NCBI GenBank assembly: GCA_902782645.1
Contig: CACZNV010000177.1
Location: 1-32,371, forward strand
Direction: 5' to 3'
Origin: an uncultured Ruminococcus sp.
GTDB taxonomy: Bacteria; Bacillota; Clostridia; UBA1212
Length of the DNA: 32,371 bases
Part shown: positions 4,564-29,623 of the stretch, piece by piece
Layout of the letters: every line of letters starts with the position of its first letter
Numbering within the stretch: the stretch's first letter is position 1
Notes under the pieces: generated by a model
Seen by the model: only the letters and a program-made list of their open reading frames with translations
What the model was told of the DNA's origin: nothing
Database searches by the model: none
Program-made: the position numbers and the translations under genes

Positions 4564-7500
4564 TTACCACTTGTTCTTCAAGTTTATTATATCGTGCCAC
4601 TTGGGTGTAGCACAAGTAAGGTTACTATAGGAATATGGATTGCCTTGGTTCATCAAGGCAGAGACTGATGCGTCATTTGGATACCCTCCTCTCCCATTTG
4701 TTACTGATGCTAAATCAGTTAATTGTTTTGGATGAGCCAACTTCAAAGCATGCCCCAGTTCATGCAATATTACCTTTTGGATTACTATATCATCCGCTCC
4801 GCTAAGTGCTCCTGAACTTGATGTGTTCAAATAAATATGCACCTTGTGCCAGGTATTTCCTATTCCAGTTTCGGAATAAGCTCCATATGGAACTGTTACT
4901 CCATAAGTAAAATCATCAGTGGGAGTATAGCCTTTAAAGGTAACTTCAAATGGAGTAATTCCATACGGAACACTGTCATCTGGACCATAAATAACGATTT
5001 TGGTTGATATTCCATTCAAGTAATCGATTACATCAAAATTGGAGGAATCAATGATGGAATTATTATATACCGAGTCAGAGCCTGAATCATCTATCATTAT
5101 CTTTATGTGAATAATACTTCCTTGCCCGTAATAGTTGCCATTCCAGTAATTGTTGAAAGAAGAAGTTTCAACTTCCTCAAAAATCCATTTAGCATATTCG
5201 TTTTCAGATCCAAGATCAATACATTTGACAGAATAATCATCGGACTGTGCAGTTATTGATGAATCATTATACATTGATGACACATTAACCAAGTAGTAGT
5301 ATCCTGCGTTATTGCTTATAGACCAATTATCATTTAAAGATCCTGTCTGAAGTATCGGAGAACTGCCTGAACTATTCCCACAAATCATTAATTCTTGCAA
5401 ACCACTGTTATTTTTTCTTCCCATCGAATATAGCTTATATCCGCTCCCAGTCCACTCAACATACCATAGCTGACGCCCGTCCATTGTATTTTTTGAAGCA
5501 AGCGAAAAACTTGTATTTGAAGTTGCAGTTAAATATAAGTTTTTGGAAGCGTTCTTAATCATATATACGGAACCGCTGCTTATTCCGATTGTTTCAACAG
5601 ATGGATTGCCCACAGTAAGTGTGCATCTATCTGTGATATATGGATAAGAGAACAAAGATACTGTAATATATATTTTCCCGTGATTTATTGCAGTTACAGC
5701 GCCTGAGTTTATATCAATATATGCGATTCTCTCGTTTTCTGATGACCATTCAACTGATAAAGAATTCTCGCCATGGTATGTAGAATAAGTCGCCGCAGAA
5801 AAATCAGCAACCTCGCCAATCGTCATACTTGTTTTCTTATATTTAACAGCAACGCCCCTATAATCTGTCGAAACTCTGTTTGCAGACCAAACCTGGAGCA
5901 AACTAGTTGACGAATAATCTGAAAGTACTATATCCCAGTCTGCCTCATAATTTTCAGGACAAGTTACTGTTTTACTATCACCATATTGACTGTATATGTA
6001 ATATCCTTGGGCATTACTGCCTATACGCCATTTTGCCGCATAAGGAGTTGATGAATTTGACGTTCCAATCGTTTTACATACTAATGACGAGTTCTGACAA
6101 TACCAACCCATACTATTGTCAAGCATCGAACGGATATTATACAATCCACTACCTAAATAGGATAGTTTGAATAGTTGGTAGCGATTATTAGGCAAGCTAG
6201 GAACACCAAAATCTGTTTCATAAGCGGTCAAGGGTTCATATTCGTTATATGAGCTGTTATCATAGAATTCTATTCTATTGTTTTTATAAAGGTTATCAAA
6301 GTAGTAAACTCCGTTCTGCAAATAGATGTAGACTTTACAATATGCACAATACGGTTCCCCATCAACAAAAACGAATGCATAAATATCCGTTGTTCCTGCC
6401 TTTATACCAGTGACCGTTCCATCCGAAGAAACTGAAGCTATTGAGCTGTTACCTGAAATCCACAAAGGTGTCATAGATGCCGGAGAAACAAATGCCGAAA
6501 GGGAGAATGTTCCGCCCTCAGGAATTGAACAGCTGGAAAAACTGATACTTATTTGTGGCGTATATGTAAACACCACGTAGGGTCTATTCTGTGTGGTCGT
6601 ACATTCACAGGAGTCAAAACACTTATCGTTTGATTCTATTGCATTTTTTAGTATAAAACCGCAGTCAGCGTTGTAAATTGAGTTTTTCCATTTCTTAGCC
6701 AAGTCTGTAATATCAAAGCCAGTCCACTGGCTGTTGTTCATTGTGGCGCCATAATTGACTGATGCATCAAAATTCTGGCCTATATCATTCCATGACACAT
6801 TACTCTCATTCCAATTATTGACATTAATAATTGGATGAACATCGATGGTTTGTGCCGTTCCACCAGATGATTCTCTAGCATAAAATAGAACGCTAGAAAT
6901 CTGTGACGCTGAAATAGTTGTATACTCTATGGACGAAGTTAATCCGCTGAGTTTAACAACTGTGCGTCCGACACCATAATTTGTATCTGGTGTTCCCACG
7001 CGATTGTAAAGGAATGATCCAAAATTAGATGCTGGTTTGTTTTGAAAAATAGGTGCATCTTGAATTCCATTAACACTGTGAGTATTGTCAGACACAACCA
7101 ATGATGTTTCGATTGTAACAGGAAATACAACACTCTCATTTTTCAAAAATAGCGGGTCAACTGAAATGGTTATTATGTACTCGCCACCCTCTGAAATTGT
7201 CTCAACAGACATGCTAGCAAATCCAATGTGGTTTGCTGAATCACATACAAAAACTTCACCAAGCATGAGGCAATCCTTGAAGTTTTCTTGAGTAGTAAAG
7301 TAAAAACCTTCTTCATCAGAATTGATAATGAGACCATCGGTTTTAAACCTAAATGAATACTCATTACTGGCGGAACTATCCAGCAAGAGAATCGTCTCCA
7401 TCATTCCCGACAACAGAGGCTTATAACTTAAGCACGCATCTTTGCCAAACGAGTCAGGATACAGAACAGAAAAAAAATCTAGTTTTCCTTTAGCAGATTG

Positions 7501-8028
7501 TATTGCATTGGGAGTTATCGAAACGTCAAATTTATTATACTTGAACCTAACGGGGTCTTTAACATCTTTAGGAAAAATAAGGCCTATATCATTACAATTA
7601 GGAGAAAAACCCTCTCTGTTAGCCCTAATTGAAATATCTTTTTCCAATACGTTGCCACAATCATCAATAAATTTGACATTATCATCAAAGTAATACACCG
7701 CACGTTTTCCCTCTTCTGTTTGGAAAACATAAGTGTTAAGTGATTCCTCCTGTGGAAGGCGACAAGTATAGTTCTGAGAATCAAATTGATTGGGATCAAC
7801 ATAGTTCTTTATACGACACTCAGCATTACAATCGAAGAAAGACTCCGTTATTAAAGCCTCTTCGATGTTTTCACTTTTGCGACAAATGGTGTTATCAGCA
7901 TTTTCTAATTCCTCAATCCCAGTGCTTGTGTTATCCATGTAATTCGTTATAGCCAAAGATGGAAATGTTCCAACTGATACAATGGTGACAAGCAAAACTA
8001 AGACAACAAGTCTCGTTACATTTTTCAT
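4564..8028 (-). CDS. Large secreted metzincin-type zinc protease with DNRLRE, Big_2 and ricin-like domains
   Basis: The 1154-residue protein starts at ATG 8028, with AGGAG upstream. It has a signal peptide (1 to about 26, ending SLA). Later regions are a DNRLRE-like domain (about 325-490), a Big_2-like Ig domain (about 493-570), a first beta-trefoil/ricin-like stretch (about 574-720), a second Big_2-like domain (about 725-806) and a second ricin-like stretch (about 817-953). A C-terminal metallopeptidase follows. Its zinc motif is HELGHALKLAH (H1089, E1090, H1093, H1099), with a Met-turn SALM (1123-1126) about 27 residues on. Metzincins normally have Gly where K1096 lies. The catalytic domain is at the C-terminus, the reverse of the more common order. 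Sampled lines have 35-42% GC, against about 55% in a sampled neighbour line, suggesting acquisition by transfer. Residues 27-320 match nothing I know. Confidence 0.85.
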   Translation of the reverse strand: MKNVTRLVVLVLLVTIVSVGTFPSLAITNYMDNTSTGIEELENADNTICRKSENIEEALITESFFDCNAECRIKNYVDPNQFDSQNYTCRLPQEESLNTYVFQTEEGKRAVYYFDDNVKFIDDCGNVLEKDISIRANREGFSPNCNDIGLIFPKDVKDPVRFKYNKFDVSITPNAIQSAKGKLDFFSVLYPDSFGKDACLSYKPLLSGMMETILLLDSSASNEYSFRFKTDGLIINSDEEGFYFTTQENFKDCLMLGEVFVCDSANHIGFASMSVETISEGGEYIITISVDPLFLKNESVVFPVTIETSLVVSDNTHSVNGIQDAPIFQNKPASNFGSFLYNRVGTPDTNYGVGRTVVKLSGLTSSIEYTTISASQISSVLFYARESSGGTAQTIDVHPIINVNNWNESNVSWNDIGQNFDASVNYGATMNNSQWTGFDITDLAKKWKNSIYNADCGFILKNAIESNDKCFDSCECTTTQNRPYVVFTYTPQISISFSSCSIPEGGTFSLSAFVSPASMTPLWISGNSSIASVSSDGTVTGIKAGTTDIYAFVFVDGEPYCAYCKVYIYLQNGVYYFDNLYKNNRIEFYDNSSYNEYEPLTAYETDFGVPSLPNNRYQLFKLSYLGSGLYNIRSMLDNSMGWYCQNSSLVCKTIGTSNSSTPYAAKWRIGSNAQGYYIYSQYGDSKTVTCPENYEADWDIVLSDYSSTSLLQVWSANRVSTDYRGVAVKYKKTSMTIGEVADFSAATYSTYHGENSLSVEWSSENERIAYIDINSGAVTAINHGKIYITVSLFSYPYITDRCTLTVGNPSVETIGISSGSVYMIKNASKNLYLTATSNTSFSLASKNTMDGRQLWYVEWTGSGYKLYSMGRKNNSGLQELMICGNSSGSSPILQTGSLNDNWSISNNAGYYYLVNVSSMYNDSSITAQSDDYSVKCIDLGSENEYAKWIFEEVETSSFNNYWNGNYYGQGSIIHIKIMIDDSGSDSVYNNSIIDSSNFDVIDYLNGISTKIVIYGPDDSVPYGITPFEVTFKGYTPTDDFTYGVTVPYGAYSETGIGNTWHKVHIYLNTSSSGALSGADDIVIQKVILHELGHALKLAHPKQLTDLASVTNGRGGYPNDASVSALMNQGNPYSYSNLTCATPKWHDIINLKNKW

Positions 8029-21825: not shown

Positions 21826-24693
21826 TCAGCCCTCCGGCGGTGTTGTCGGTGTTGGCGTGGGAGTAGGAGTTTCGCCGTTATCCGGCGTAGGGCTCGGCGT
21901 AGGAGTCTCGCCGTTGTCCGGCGTGGGGCTCGGGGTCGGAGTCTCGCCGTTGTCCGGTGTGGGACTCGGCGTCGGAGTTTCGCCGTTGTCCGGTGTGGGA
22001 CTCGGCGTCGGAGTTTCGCCGTTATCAGGTGTGGGGCTCGGAGTCGGGGTCTCGCCGTTGTCAGGTGTGGGACTCGGCGTCGGAGTTGATGTGGGCGTCG
22101 GGGTCGGCGTTGATGTGGGCGTCGGGGTCGGCGTAGGTGTAGGTGTAGGTGAATTTGTGGGTGTAGGAGTCGGCGTAGAAGTCGGCGTTGCAGTTGCCTC
22201 AGCTACCTCCGGCGTGTTCGAAGGAACCGGAGTTGCAGGACTTGCGCTCTCTTCCGCAGTTGTCGGCGTGGGCTCCGGGGCTGAAGTTTCGGGGTCCCCG
22301 GTCTCGGATTCCTGAGTCTCTAAAGGCGTCTCATCTTCATGATTTGAAGGAGTCTGGGACTCTTCCGCATAATCTGTGGAGCCGGGGGTTCCCGTCTCGT
22401 ACACCGGCGTTGTTCCCGATGAAGGCTTGCTGTCCTTTCTGAACATCTCGATTGCGAAGAATGCGAGAACAACCACTATCACCAGGCAAACCAGGAAAAT
22501 GACAATTGTAGGCCAGATGCTTTCCTTTGGCGTGTCTTTTGAGATTCCCGTAAACCTCTTTGCTGCCTCCGAAACGGTGGGCGCAGGGGCAGCTTCATCG
22601 GCCTTTTCGGGCTCATCGTCAGGGTTGTCTAAATCGATATCGGTCTCGAAGAAGTTGACTGCCTCCTCGATGGCTCCGTCGGATTCGTTTGACGTATAGA
22701 GTTCGGTCACGCCCTCATCGTCAACGTCGTAAGGTCTTGCATTGTAGCCCTGATCCAGTTCCTCCTCTTCTGAAGCGGAGGGTTCTTCAATGTCCGCTGT
22801 GCCGGAACCGACTGCAGTCTCGCCGACTGCTTCTTCCACAGTGCCGGCTTCGCTTTCGTTCGTTTTGAGATCTCTGTCCTCTTCCACAGCGGATTTGCGT
22901 CTTCTTCCGAACCTGAATCCGGAATCTTCGTCTTCAACAGGATTCTCCGGGATAACTGCTGCGGTTTCGGACCCGCCAACGGCTTCCTCATCGGCAGCCT
23001 CTGTTTTTTCACTTTTTTTCGCTTCAGGAACGTTTTCGCGCCTTACAGTCGTCTTCAGGGCCTGTCTTAAAGCCTCTCTGAAAGAAGTCTTTTGCGGCTT
23101 TTTCTCAATGGTGGGAACATCTTCCGTGATGTTCTCTTCCTCCATGTCAAAGAACACAATGTCATCGGTGAGTACTTTTTTGCTGCGCCGGGCCTCTTTT
23201 TCTGCCCTTTCAGCTTCGGCTCGCTCAGCGGCAGCCTTCTCAGCTGCAGCTTTTTCAGCGGCTGCTCTTTCTGCGGCAGCCTTCTCGGCGGCAGCTTTCT
23301 CCAAAGCAGCCTTCTCTGCTGCGGCTTTCTCGGCGGCTGCTCTTTCGGCGGCTGCTCTTTCGGCGGCAGATCTTTCCGCAGCTTCCCGGGCGGCTCTTTC
23401 AGCAGACTCCTTGGCGCGTTTTTCGGCTTCCTTCTCGGCTTTCTCAGCGGCGGCCTTTTCGGCTGCCTCTTTTGCGGCAAGAGCAGCAGCAGCTTTTGCG
23501 GCTTCTTTCTCTGCCTTCTTAGCGGCTTCAGCTTCTGCCTTTTCGGCTTTCTTTGCAGCCGCTTTTTCCGCCGCGGCCTTTTCAGCGGCCTCTTTGGCGG
23601 CAAGGGCGGCCGCTGCTTTTGCGGCTTCCTTGGCGTCCTTTTCAGCCTGCTCCTTGGCAAGTTTTTCCGCCTCATTTGCGGCTTTTTCCGCAGCAGCTTT
23701 TTCGGCCTGCTCCCGTTCAGCTTTTTCGGCCTCTGCGCGGGCATTCTGTTCGGATTCGGCTTTGGTTCTCTCCTCGGCAGAGGCACGGGCCGCCAATTCG
23801 GCAGCGGCTATCGCCGCAGCTTCAGCCGCCGCGTCTGAAACGTTCTTTGCGGCGGGTTTTGCGGGTTCGTCATTGGCGTCTTCCGTCTCGGAGTTCTCGT
23901 CGCTCTCGCCGTAGCACTTTACAACGATGGCGGAAAAATCGCCCACGCTTGTGTCGACGCACCTGTTGAGAATTCTGGCTGCAATCTCCCCGGGGTCACT
24001 CTCGGAGGCAGCCTCAAGGAGCATATTTTTGTCGATGATGTCCGCAAAGGATGTGCCGAGGATAACAAATACCTCGCCCTCAGTGGCGGTGACGGTCTCG
24101 ATGTCCGGCACCGACGCGTCGCGGTTGATGCCCAGGTAGCGCACCAGCTTTTTCCTCTGGGGATGGCCCTTGAGCTTTGCCATGGGAACCACGCCCATTG
24201 ACACCATTTTCATGGCCTGGGTGTGCTCCACGGTGAGTTCTCTCACATTTCCGTCTTTGATTGAATAGATTTTGACGCAGCCAACATTGGCGACAGTGAC
24301 TTTGTCGTCGTCTGTGCAGAGCAGCGCGCATGAGACCTTTGTGTAGATGTCGTCGTCGTTTTCAATTGTCTGCGACACGTCAAGAGCGGCGTCGGCGAAG
24401 TAGTTTTTCAGAAGGCGGTCCACGTTTGTGTCCGTGTTCTTCAGGAAAAAGGCGTGGTACTTCTTCAGTTTTCCGAAAACCGCGTTAACCGATGACGAGC
24501 CGGTGGCAGGAGAATATAACCCTGTCGCCAATGCAAACATCTGACGCCCTCCTCTTGCGGATTTTTGCGTCAGCCTGATTCTGTTCTCGCTCATCGCGGG
24601 CGTGATGACCTTGGAATTGAAATAAAAATTGTCGCAGAACTTTTCGTCTCCCGGTCCCGGGCAGTATACGACAGCTGATTTAAAGCTTAACAT
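21826..24693 (-). CDS. PP2C-like (probably inactive) domain, helical rod, membrane segment and wall-spanning Thr/Pro repeat
   Basis: The 955-residue protein starts at ATG 24693 after GAGAGG. Residues 1-265 align by eye to the PP2C Ser/Thr phosphatase fold: DNFYF (21-25), [34 protein letters not shown] and DFSAIVV (252-258). The metal-binding residues are degenerate: DGMGG is TGLYSPATG (57-65), GDSR is GCVK (138-141), and the final DN is GD. Residues 285-505 are Ala/Glu/Lys-rich and almost certainly one long helix or coiled coil, TolA-like. Residues 510-725 are acidic and disordered. One membrane helix (about 727-750) follows, then a Thr/Pro/Ser tail with six copies of a 12-residue repeat. With no signal peptide the PP2C part is cytoplasmic and the tail outside. 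No kinase partner is in the window. Confidence 0.75.
21859..22074 (-). repeat. Six-copy 36-bp in-frame tandem repeat
   Basis: Each 36-bp unit encodes [12 protein letters not shown] (residues 874-945 of the PP2C-like protein). Copies differ only by silent changes (for example GTTATC versus GTTGTC), which suggests recent expansion with selection on the peptide. Copy number could vary between strains through slippage. Confidence 0.92.
23179..23841 (-). repeat. Low-complexity Ala/Glu/Lys-coding stretch
   Basis: About 660 bp encode imperfect repeats of the AEKAA and AAAEKAAAE type (residues 285-505). The third codon positions vary, so this is an older, partly diverged array and not a fresh duplication. 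It produces long spurious open frames on the other strand. Confidence 0.85.
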
Positions 24694-26128: not shown

Positions 26129-28003
26129 TCAGCCTCTCACGGCCCTCTTCAGCTCCTTGACGGCCTTGAAAAGAACCTCTGCGCCCTTTCTGATCTCCTC
26201 TTCAGTTGTAAATCTCGAGAAGCTGAATCTCACGCTGCCGTCAATAATTTTCACCGGAACATTCATGGCCGTAAGCACGTGGCTCCTGTTTTTCTTCTTT
26301 GACGAGCAGGCCGAGCCCACGGACACGAACATGTTTTCAGACTCAAGGGCGTGCAGCAGAACTTCCGCTCTTATAGGCGAAAACGATACGTTGAATATGT
26401 AGGGCAGCGTGGCGTCCGGGTCCGAATTGATATGGATTTTGTCGCCGTACTTTTCAAGAAGGAGCTCCCTGAAAAGATTTCTTGCCCGTTTAACGTTCTC
26501 ATATGACTCGCCAATGTCTTTAAACGCATCCTCTGCCGCCGCTGCAAAGCCCCTTATCGCAGGAAGGTTTTCGGTGCCTGAACGGAGACCGCTCTCCTGG
26601 CCGCCGCCGTGGGTCACGGGAGCCAGCCTGATGCCCCGCCTTGCGTAAAGGAATCCGGCGCCCCTGGGGCCGTGTATCTTGTGGGCGCTTGCCGTCAGCA
26701 TGTCGCACCCCAAATCTTTTACGTCGATTTTCAGTTTCCCGTAGCCCTGCACGCAATCTGTGTGAAGGATTATTTTGGGATTTATCGAGTTTTTAACCGC
26801 TGCAATTTCCTTTATAGGCATTATTGCGCCGGTCTCGCTGTTTACGGTCATGACCGAAATGAGAGCCGTGTCGCTGTCTATCATCTCGAAAAGGGCCTTG
26901 ATGTCGATCACTCCCCTGCCGTCCACCGGGCAGAGCTCCACCTTGTAGCCAAGGCTTTCGAGGCTCTTTGCGGTTTCAAGGACCGACGGGTGTTCCACAG
27001 CTGAGACGATAACCTTGCTGCCGGAATGTTTATTGGCGGCAAGATAACCTTTTATTGCAAGATTGTTCGCTTCCGTTCCGGAGGCGGTGAATGTGATTTC
27101 GTTTCTGTCGGCGCCCACCGTTCCGGCAATGACGCCGCGGGCAGCCGTAAGTTCCTTCTCGGCAAGCATTCCCAGCCTCGTAAGCGAGGAGGGGTTTCCG
27201 TAGAATTTCCTTGCCGTTTCAGCCACAACCGCAGTCACACGGGGGGTCTGCCTCGTTGTGGCGCTGTTGTCGAAATAAATAACACGCTTTTCGCAGAAAG
27301 CGCTCTCCTCGTACTGCTCGTAGAGGTCGGGGCGCCTCTCCTTGGTTATCTTTTCGGCCTCTTTAAGCCGCCAGGCTTCGATGTCCGCATGGTTTCCCCC
27401 CGTGAGAACCTCCGGCACATCCGCTCCTTCAAAGGTCGCGGGCTTTGTGTATTGAGGGTACTCCAGCAAAAGCTTTTCGAAGGACTCGTCGCCGCCGGAC
27501 TCCGGTGACCCCAGAACTCCCGGGACAAACCTTGAAACGGTGTCAATAAGAACGGCTGCGGGAAGCTCCCCTCCCGTCAGCACATAATCTCCGATGGATA
27601 TCTCCTCGTCGCAGAAGGCGTCGATAAACCTCTGGTCGATGCCCTCGTAGTGTCCGCAGACAACTATCATGTAGGGGTTTCCGGCAAGCCTTTTTGCGGT
27701 TTTGGCGTCAAGTTTTGTGCCCCTTGGCGACATAAGAACCGTGTAGGGTTTCCCGAAGCCCTTTGCGGCGGCGTTTTCGGTTGCCGCGCGGCAGCATGAA
27801 GCGAGAGGCTGGCAGGTCATGAGCATGCCCGGGCCGCCTCCGTAGGGGGTGTCGTCCACCTTGTTTTGCTTGTTTTCCGAATAGTCCCTGATTTGGTAAA
27901 AACCCAGGTCTATGTGGCCCGAGTTCACCGCCCTCCCCACTATGCTTTCGGAGAGAGCAGTTTTCACCATTTCGGGAAACAGCGTCAGAACGTCAATTTT
28001 CAT
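26129..28003 (-). CDS. trmD: Fusion of tRNA m1G37 methyltransferase TrmD with a NifS/IscS-type cysteine desulfurase
   Basis: One uninterrupted frame encodes 624 residues. Residues 1 to about 232 are TrmD: LTLFPEM, YGGGPGML (54-61), SPRG (92-95), CGHYEGIDQRF (116-126) and the trefoil-knot segment ISIGDYVLTGGELPAAVLIDTVSR, with R158 and D172 as likely catalytic residues. Residues 241-624 are a complete class V cysteine desulfurase. It has IYFDNSATT at its start, H338 stacking on PLP, D416, the PLP lysine K442 in SAHKIHGPRG, and the persulfide cysteine C566 in SVGSACSS. The join is EQYEESAFCEKR at about 27283. No stop and no in-frame ATG, GTG or TTG lies at the join, so the second half cannot easily start on its own. 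It lies directly upstream of thiI, and the usual rpsP-rimM-rplS neighbours are absent. Confidence 0.93.
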   Translation of the reverse strand: MKIDVLTLFPEMVKTALSESIVGRAVNSGHIDLGFYQIRDYSENKQNKVDDTPYGGGPGMLMTCQPLASCCRAATENAAAKGFGKPYTVLMSPRGTKLDAKTAKRLAGNPYMIVVCGHYEGIDQRFIDAFCDEEISIGDYVLTGGELPAAVLIDTVSRFVPGVLGSPESGGDESFEKLLLEYPQYTKPATFEGADVPEVLTGGNHADIEAWRLKEAEKITKERRPDLYEQYEESAFCEKRVIYFDNSATTRQTPRVTAVVAETARKFYGNPSSLTRLGMLAEKELTAARGVIAGTVGADRNEITFTASGTEANNLAIKGYLAANKHSGSKVIVSAVEHPSVLETAKSLESLGYKVELCPVDGRGVIDIKALFEMIDSDTALISVMTVNSETGAIMPIKEIAAVKNSINPKIILHTDCVQGYGKLKIDVKDLGCDMLTASAHKIHGPRGAGFLYARRGIRLAPVTHGGGQESGLRSGTENLPAIRGFAAAAEDAFKDIGESYENVKRARNLFRELLLEKYGDKIHINSDPDATLPYIFNVSFSPIRAEVLLHALESENMFVSVGSACSSKKKNRSHVLTAMNVPVKIIDGSVRFSFSRFTTEEEIRKGAEVLFKAVKELKRAVRG

Positions 28004-28078: not shown

Positions 28079-29386
28079 TCATTGGGGCTTGCCGAGAAGC
28101 TTAAACATGTTCTTCTTATATGCCTCAACGCCGGGCTGGTTGAAAGGATTCACGCCAAGCATATATCCGCTGATTGCGCATGCCCTCTCGAAGAAATAGA
28201 TGAGCCCGCCAATGCTTTTCGCATCCAGCTTCTCAATCGATATTTTGAGGTTGGGAACGCCGCCGTCGATGTGAGCCATTGCCGTGCCCTTGGCGGCCTG
28301 CTTGTTAACATAGTCCATGCCCTTGCCGGCAAGGTAGTTAAGGCCGTCGCAGTCGTCCTCATCTTTGCCTATAACAAGGTCAACCGCAGGCTTTTTGACT
28401 TCAATGGCGGTCTCGAACATGAGTCTAACGCCGTCCTGGATGTACTGGCCCATGGAGTGGAGGTCTGTCGTAAAATCGCATCCTGCAGGGAAAAGGCCCT
28501 TGCCGTTTTTGCCCTCGCTCTCGCCGTAGAGCTGCTTCCACCATTCGGTGACGTAGTGGAGGCCGGGCTCGTAGTTGACCAGCAGCTCCACGGATTTGCC
28601 TTGGCGGTAAAGGGCCGTTCTTGCGGCAGCATATCTGTAGCAGTCGTTCTTTTCGACGGAGATGTCTCCGTACTCGCCGAAAGCTTCCTTGGCGCCTTCT
28701 GTAAGAGCGTCCGTGTCGATGCCGGCAACGGCAATCGGAAGAAGTCCCACAGGTGTCAGTACACTGAATCTGCCGCCAACGTCATCCGGAATCACAAAGG
28801 TTTCATAACCCTCTGCGTCAGCCATTTTCTTAAGAGCGCCCCGGGCCTTGTCTGTGGTGGCGTAAATGCGCTTTGCGGCGCCGCTGCGGCCGTACTTTTT
28901 CTCAAGGAGTTCTTTAAAGAATCTGAATGTGACCGCCGGCTCCGTGGTGGTTCCGGATTTGGAGATGACGTTTACCGAGAAATCCCTGTCCTTCACAAGT
29001 TCAAGGACGGACGAAAGATAGACGGGGCTGATGGAGTTGCCGGCAAAAACAACGGCTGTTCCGCCCTTCCCGGCAAGTGCATTGGCGTTTGCAAAGGGGT
29101 CCGTCAGCGCTTCGATCACAGCTCTGGCGCCAAGGTAGGATCCGCCGATACCCACCACCACAAGCACCTCCGAATCGCTTCTGATTTTCCTTGCGGCCGC
29201 TTTCACCCGTTCATACTCATCGCCAAGCTGAAAAGGCAGATCATACCAGCCGAGAAAGTCGTTCCCGTCGCCTGTCCTGCCGGCAAGCTTTTCGTGTGCG
29301 GTTTTTATTTCGTCTTTCAGAGAATCTATAACGCCTGCGCCTATAAAACTTTCAGCGCCGCTCATGTCAAATTCAACGATTGCCAT
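28079..29386 (-). CDS. pgi: Glucose-6-phosphate isomerase
   Basis: From ATG 29386, with GGAGG 6 bases upstream, the product is 435 residues, near the usual 440-450 of the Gram-positive form. A longer frame to 29518 adds 44 residues unlike the family and would read through the promoter. [13 protein letters not shown] (78-88) and SKSGTTTEP (142-150) are the sugar-phosphate binding signatures, and [10 protein letters not shown] near the C-terminus matches the family. It interconverts glucose-6-phosphate and fructose-6-phosphate in glycolysis. It is followed after 75 bp by the trmD fusion on the same strand, so read-through is possible, but no functional link is evident. Confidence 0.95.
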
Positions 29387-29447
29387 AAAACCCTCCGGTT
29401 TGCTAAAGTTGCAGGGGCGCGCGGTTTGCGCGCGCACATACACTTTT

Positions 29448-29476
29448 ATTATATAACGAATTCGCCGTTCGCGCAA
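29448..29476 (-). promoter_or_regulatory. Candidate promoter for pgi with a GC hairpin in the leader
   Basis: On the minus strand TATAAT (29453-29448) is preceded, 17 bases back, by TTGCGC (29476-29471), a weak -35. The leader then contains alternating GCGCGC tracts (about 29416-29435) able to form a short stable hairpin before the GGAGG site. Confidence 0.55.
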
Positions 29477-29623
29477 GATAAAAACCTTGCCGGGTTCACC
29501 GGTTGGGAAGTTTTTCATTGGCGTGTTTCCCGTGCACCCGCCGCTCCCCGCAGCCCTCGCCGGAAAGGGTCCCCGTCTCCGCCTAAAAACAGCAAAAAGC
29601 TGCTTTTTTGCACCGAATTTTTC

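Follow-up and report, generated by a model that had tools for sequence, protein, structure and literature searches.

A 32,371-nucleotide stretch of DNA from an uncultured member of the Clostridia (hereafter the window) carries a gene in which the tRNA methyltransferase gene trmD is fused in frame to a complete cysteine desulfurase gene, here called nifS. The fusion is real, conserved, of single origin and apparently unreported, and its benefit is probably co-expression or nothing.

The fusion gene and its surroundings

The fusion gene is a single 624-codon frame on the minus strand with an ATG start and no internal stop, and it is followed directly downstream on the same strand by thiI. The features concerned are listed below.

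26129..28003 including stop, minus strand: trmD-nifS fusion gene, 624 aa, supported by Pfam and NCBIfam, in 27 of 31 order genomes
27308..28003, minus strand: TrmD domain, residues 1 to ~232, tRNA m1G37 methyltransferase family; motifs GHYEGID, SIGDYVLTGGE and GGNH
27284..27307, minus strand: linker, approximately residues 233-240, poorly conserved, no in-frame ATG, GTG or TTG
26132..27283, minus strand: cysteine desulfurase domain of IscS/NifS type, residues 241-624; H338, D416, Q419, K442 and C566
24784..26007, minus strand: thiI, 407 aa, tRNA U8 4-thiouridine synthetase without a rhodanese domain, the expected sulfur acceptor
28079..29518, minus strand: pgi, glucose-6-phosphate isomerase, newly adjacent on the upstream side in the genus of the window and in one sister genus; no functional part of the fusion

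Pfam assigned the N-terminal half to tRNA_m1G_MT (PF01746; residues 24-225, E 4.7e-50) and the C-terminal half to Aminotran_5 (residues 242-605, E 2.4e-67), and the NCBIfam desulfurase models aligned end to end over approximately residues 240-622; the desulfurase half is complete. These assignments bear out the sequence-only reading, which had described one 624-codon frame holding TrmD and a whole desulfurase, with no stop or usable start codon at the join and with thiI immediately behind it; the window gene indeed has no in-frame ATG, GTG or TTG there, and thiI lies at 26007-24784 on the same strand.

Two other proteins encoded in the window were noted in passing. The first, of 955 aa (21826-24693, minus strand), has repeats rich in alanine and glutamate together with a [16 protein letters not shown] repeat tail, gave no Pfam match, and differs in its repeats among relatives. 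The second, of 1154 aa (4564-8028, minus strand), is probably secreted and by eye carries a C-terminal zinc-metalloprotease-like motif, HELGHALKLAH.

Distribution of the fusion

The fusion occurs in the greater part of one clostridial order, mostly uncultured, and was not seen elsewhere within our class and phylum samples, which answers the question of breadth that the sequence-only reading had raised. Among 31 sampled genomes of the window's order, 27 carry it, 24 at full length and three (G005, G024 and G025) cut at contig ends, and the carriers span four families (f1, f2, f4 and f6). The four genomes in which no fusion was seen comprise two from family f5, where trmD and nifS are separate genes, one from f3, where trmD and a nifS-thiI pair lie at different sites, and G008, a 69% complete assembly in which trmD was not found. 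Among named relatives, the nearest come from ruminant-gut and similar assemblies (UBA1243, RGIG10266 and RGIG3519), and a search with the fusion protein alone reached three close relatives, its other matches being weak ones to desulfurases. Wherever a fused locus is long enough to show it, thiI adjoins the fusion. The thiI of one close relative (G001, L039:182-1404) is split into two overlapping frames, either by an assembly frameshift or because the gene is broken.

The class sample held 391 genomes, 16 from the window's order and 375 from outside it. The 375 gave no full-length match to the fusion, the best match being to the desulfurase alone (2.5e-114), and in a phylum sample of 398 genomes searched at E <= 1e-118 the sole match was the window's own genome, with none in the 397 others. 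Horizontal spread beyond the order therefore finds no support in either set.

Both halves retain the features of working enzymes

TrmD is nearly universal, is a drug target and is usually a single-domain protein. The TrmD half of the fusion exceeds the cut-offs of both NCBIfam TrmD equivalogs, with 293 bits against 220 for NF000648 and 279 bits against 195 for TIGR00088. Its SAM-binding knot motifs, GHYEGID and GDYVLTGGE, and its G37-binding GNH are conserved as in 27 TrmDs of the class, and the general-base position holds Glu or Asp, both of which are also found across the class. Decay of this half was considered and rejected, as the motifs are intact and class TrmDs often carry Glu where Asp is usual. 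Because many bacteria cannot live without trmD (PMC7408541), and no copy other than the fusion gene was found in the 2.15 Mb window assembly, the TrmD half is expected to be active and is predicted to be an m1G37 methyltransferase.

The desulfurase half has the PLP lysine, the His, Asp and Gln of the active site and a persulfide Cys in a GSAC loop. The key residues named beforehand (H338, D416, K442 and C566) proved correct; together with Q419 they are invariant in an alignment of 24 fused genes and three unfused relatives. Sequence searches returned solved-structure matches for the TrmD and desulfurase halves alike, and the nearest solved structures to the latter are cysteine desulfurases. 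The second half is thus a cysteine desulfurase, yet no member of the named NCBIfam subfamilies: none of the cut-offs for NifS, IscS, DndA or PRK02948 was reached, the best NifS model scoring 372 bits against 531.

Because the scores fall below all of these cut-offs, the assignment of a partner to the desulfurase rests on gene order. Of 20 related unfused desulfurase genes of the class, 19 lie directly upstream of thiI, so the fused half descends from a ThiI-linked desulfurase. This agrees with the earlier view of it as a ThiI-linked type comparable to Bacillus nifZ (PMC5372745), and its placement directly upstream of a rhodanese-less thiI is that expected of a ThiI-dedicated, NifZ-like desulfurase. 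A second, IscS-type desulfurase in the window's genome adjoins an IscU-like gene and can serve Fe-S clusters. Two mnmA-type genes were also found in this genome (G000:C77:591-1172 and G000:C8:622-1188), and because of them the fused desulfurase might additionally have a role in s2U34.

The two domains are joined by a short and variable linker

Across fused genes the linker between the TrmD RPD motif and the desulfurase core is 8 to 34 residues long, and conservation near the join is lowest within it, at a mean majority of 0.42-0.44 vs 0.73 and 0.67 in the domains. AlphaFold modelled both domains of the fusion well (mean pLDDT 83.4) but placed them relative to each other with low confidence (pTM 0.62), and the structural matches listed for the model were all to the desulfurase half. 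Such a short, variable and unconserved linker points to two independent enzymes on a tether.

Probable origin from an overlapping gene pair

Gene names in the neighbourhoods compared here were assigned from sequence resemblance by eye and by tblastn. Normally rplS is the gene next after trmD. Most families of the order resemble the canonical ffh-rpsP-KH-rimM-trmD-rplS operon in keeping rpsP-KH-rimM directly upstream of what is the ancestral trmD site, but they differ from it in having nifS-thiI in place of rplS, which lies away from trmD wherever it was found in the order. In f5 the gene order is ftsY, a ylxM-like gene, ffh-rpsP-KH-rimM-trmD-nifS-thiI, where trmD and nifS share 4 nt (ATGA). 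The fused gene occupies the same site behind rpsP-KH-rimM in f2, f4, f6 and one further genome (G007), whereas in the window's genus and in G006 it is pgi that precedes the fused gene and thiI. The nifS-thiI pair itself is ordinary across the class, and because the rimM-trmD neighbourhood is conserved, it was presumably this pair that moved to trmD and not the reverse.

Trees of NifS, TrmD and ThiI each recovered a single fused clade with f5 as its sister, with support of 92/97, 100/98 and 99/94, respectively. The simplest reading of these sequences is one fusion event, with f5 keeping the precursor state. Fission as the source of the f5 arrangement is disfavoured, f5 being sister to the fused clade and not within it in all three trees. 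The sequence-only reading had held that a close relative with separate genes in an identical arrangement would speak against it; f5 is such a relative, and because of its sister position it is better regarded as the likely precursor than as a refutation.

The history suggested by these comparisons has four steps. First, a nifS-thiI pair would have settled downstream of trmD, the last gene of the ffh-rpsP-rimM-trmD operon. Second, trmD and nifS would have come to overlap by 4 nt. Third, loss of the overlapping stop would have produced a single fusion in the ancestor of most of the order. Lastly, in the window's genus and a single sister genus, the block would have moved next to pgi.

Comparison with known fusions and desulfurase-ThiI pairs

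No description of a TrmD-desulfurase fusion was found in the open-licence PMC literature, though TrmD fusions as such are a known kind (PMC11187310; also PMC1829167). The TrmD half of the TrmD-Tm1570 fusion (PF01746-PF09936) of Calditerrivibrio nitroreducens (PDB 8b1n) is active, and the two genes occur far apart, adjacent, overlapping or fused (PMC11187310). The present fusion shares with it an N-terminal TrmD, a C-terminal second enzyme and the same series of arrangements, but the second domain there is a SPOUT methyltransferase (PF09936) whereas here it is a PLP-dependent desulfurase (Aminotran_5) beside its partner gene thiI. Bacillus subtilis has a dedicated desulfurase gene, nifZ, directly upstream of a rhodanese-less thiI (PMC5372745); the order of genes is the same and s4U8 is the expected product, but NifZ is a separate protein and the desulfurase here is fused behind TrmD. 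Desulfurases joined to another enzyme domain are also known, namely the CD-rhodanese of Pseudorhodoferax and plant ABA3 with its MOSC domain (PMC8931425); there the partner accepts sulfur or is linked to an acceptor, in contrast to the methyltransferase found here, which does not use the sulfur.

Other additions to TrmD were observed within the class. G052 (L078:1625-3211, minus strand) encodes a TrmD joined to a tyrosine phosphatase-like domain (PF13350), with ~47 extra residues inserted inside TrmD. C-terminal GNAT acetyltransferase domains follow TrmD in other class families (L111:1731-3128 and L112:1337-2467, both plus strand), and C-terminal extensions of ~130-290 residues without a Pfam match were found at L075:2242-3783 (plus), L076:2070-3152 (plus) and L077:3543-4742 (minus), the first two from the same family. 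The GNAT and phosphatase fusions imply that the TrmD C-terminus tolerates additions, and they make a special link between methylation and thiolation less weighty.

Functional interpretation

We consider it likely that the fusion combines two ordinary tRNA-modification enzymes, each working independently, in one bifunctional polypeptide, with fixed 1:1 co-expression as its main effect. Judging from the conserved residues and gene order, the N-terminal TrmD would methylate G37 of tRNA to m1G37, while the C-terminal desulfurase would draw on cysteine to load C566 with a persulfide and pass the sulfur to the separately encoded ThiI for the synthesis of s4U8. The short, unconserved linker would fix the stoichiometry and co-expression of an essential enzyme with the sulfur donor of ThiI. 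The analysis itself establishes the architecture of the gene, its conservation and single origin, the unfused sister state and the gene order, whereas the two activities, the transfer of sulfur to ThiI, the oligomeric state of the protein and the selective reason for the fusion are inferred. Of the two functional readings offered from the sequence at the outset, co-expression fits better, and a single tRNA-bound enzyme coupling m1G37 to s4U8 is not upheld by the linker, the structure model or the existence of unrelated TrmD fusions.

The strongest alternative, which we hold to be possible but somewhat doubtful, is that the fusion is a neutral by-product, stop loss in the 4-nt overlap having joined two co-translated genes without benefit and return fission being improbable. 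The tightly overlapping precursor seen in f5 and the unconserved linker fit this reading, and the TrmD C-terminus seems tolerant of other fusions, both in the class and elsewhere (PMC11187310). Yet no return to separate genes has occurred in 27 genomes with identities down to ~50%, and the TrmD and desulfurase halves are both fully conserved. Single origin and retention are no proof that 1:1 expression is the benefit, and the fusion may be neutral.

Functional coupling, in which the TrmD half brings tRNA to the desulfurase and ThiI so that m1G37 and s4U8 arise jointly or one governs the other, we regard as unlikely. The two halves both take part in modifying tRNA, thiI is invariably adjacent, and the fusion has been kept in all sampled descendants even after the move beside pgi; retention in all 27 carriers could also mean an unrecognised physical coupling. 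However, the linker varies in length and is unconserved, the arrangement of the domains is not confidently modelled, other TrmD fusions unrelated to this one exist, and the association began between operon neighbours. TrmD modifies those tRNAs in which G37 follows G36, and ThiI modifies U8 in many, so any coupling could reach no more than a part of all tRNAs.

We find it less probable still that internal initiation also yields free NifS, making two products from the gene: in-frame ATG, GTG or TTG codons occur near the join in 8 of 24 full-length fused genes, but their positions differ between families with no common start, and the other 16, the window's included, have none. Finally, the sequence-only reading raised the risk that a sequencing error had concealed a frameshift or stop where the halves meet. 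The window is a single contig out of 180 in its assembly, but chance, misassembly and sequencing error are all excluded, because 23 further full-length genomes from four families have this frame open as well, at 49-90% identity.

Significance

An order-wide fusion with surviving unfused sister states provides a compact natural record of the passage from operon overlap to bifunctional enzyme, and it sets up a direct test of any link between G37 methylation and U8 thiolation. If the fusion did act as a tRNA-modification hub, m1G37 and s4U8 would be installed in a coupled way in this order.
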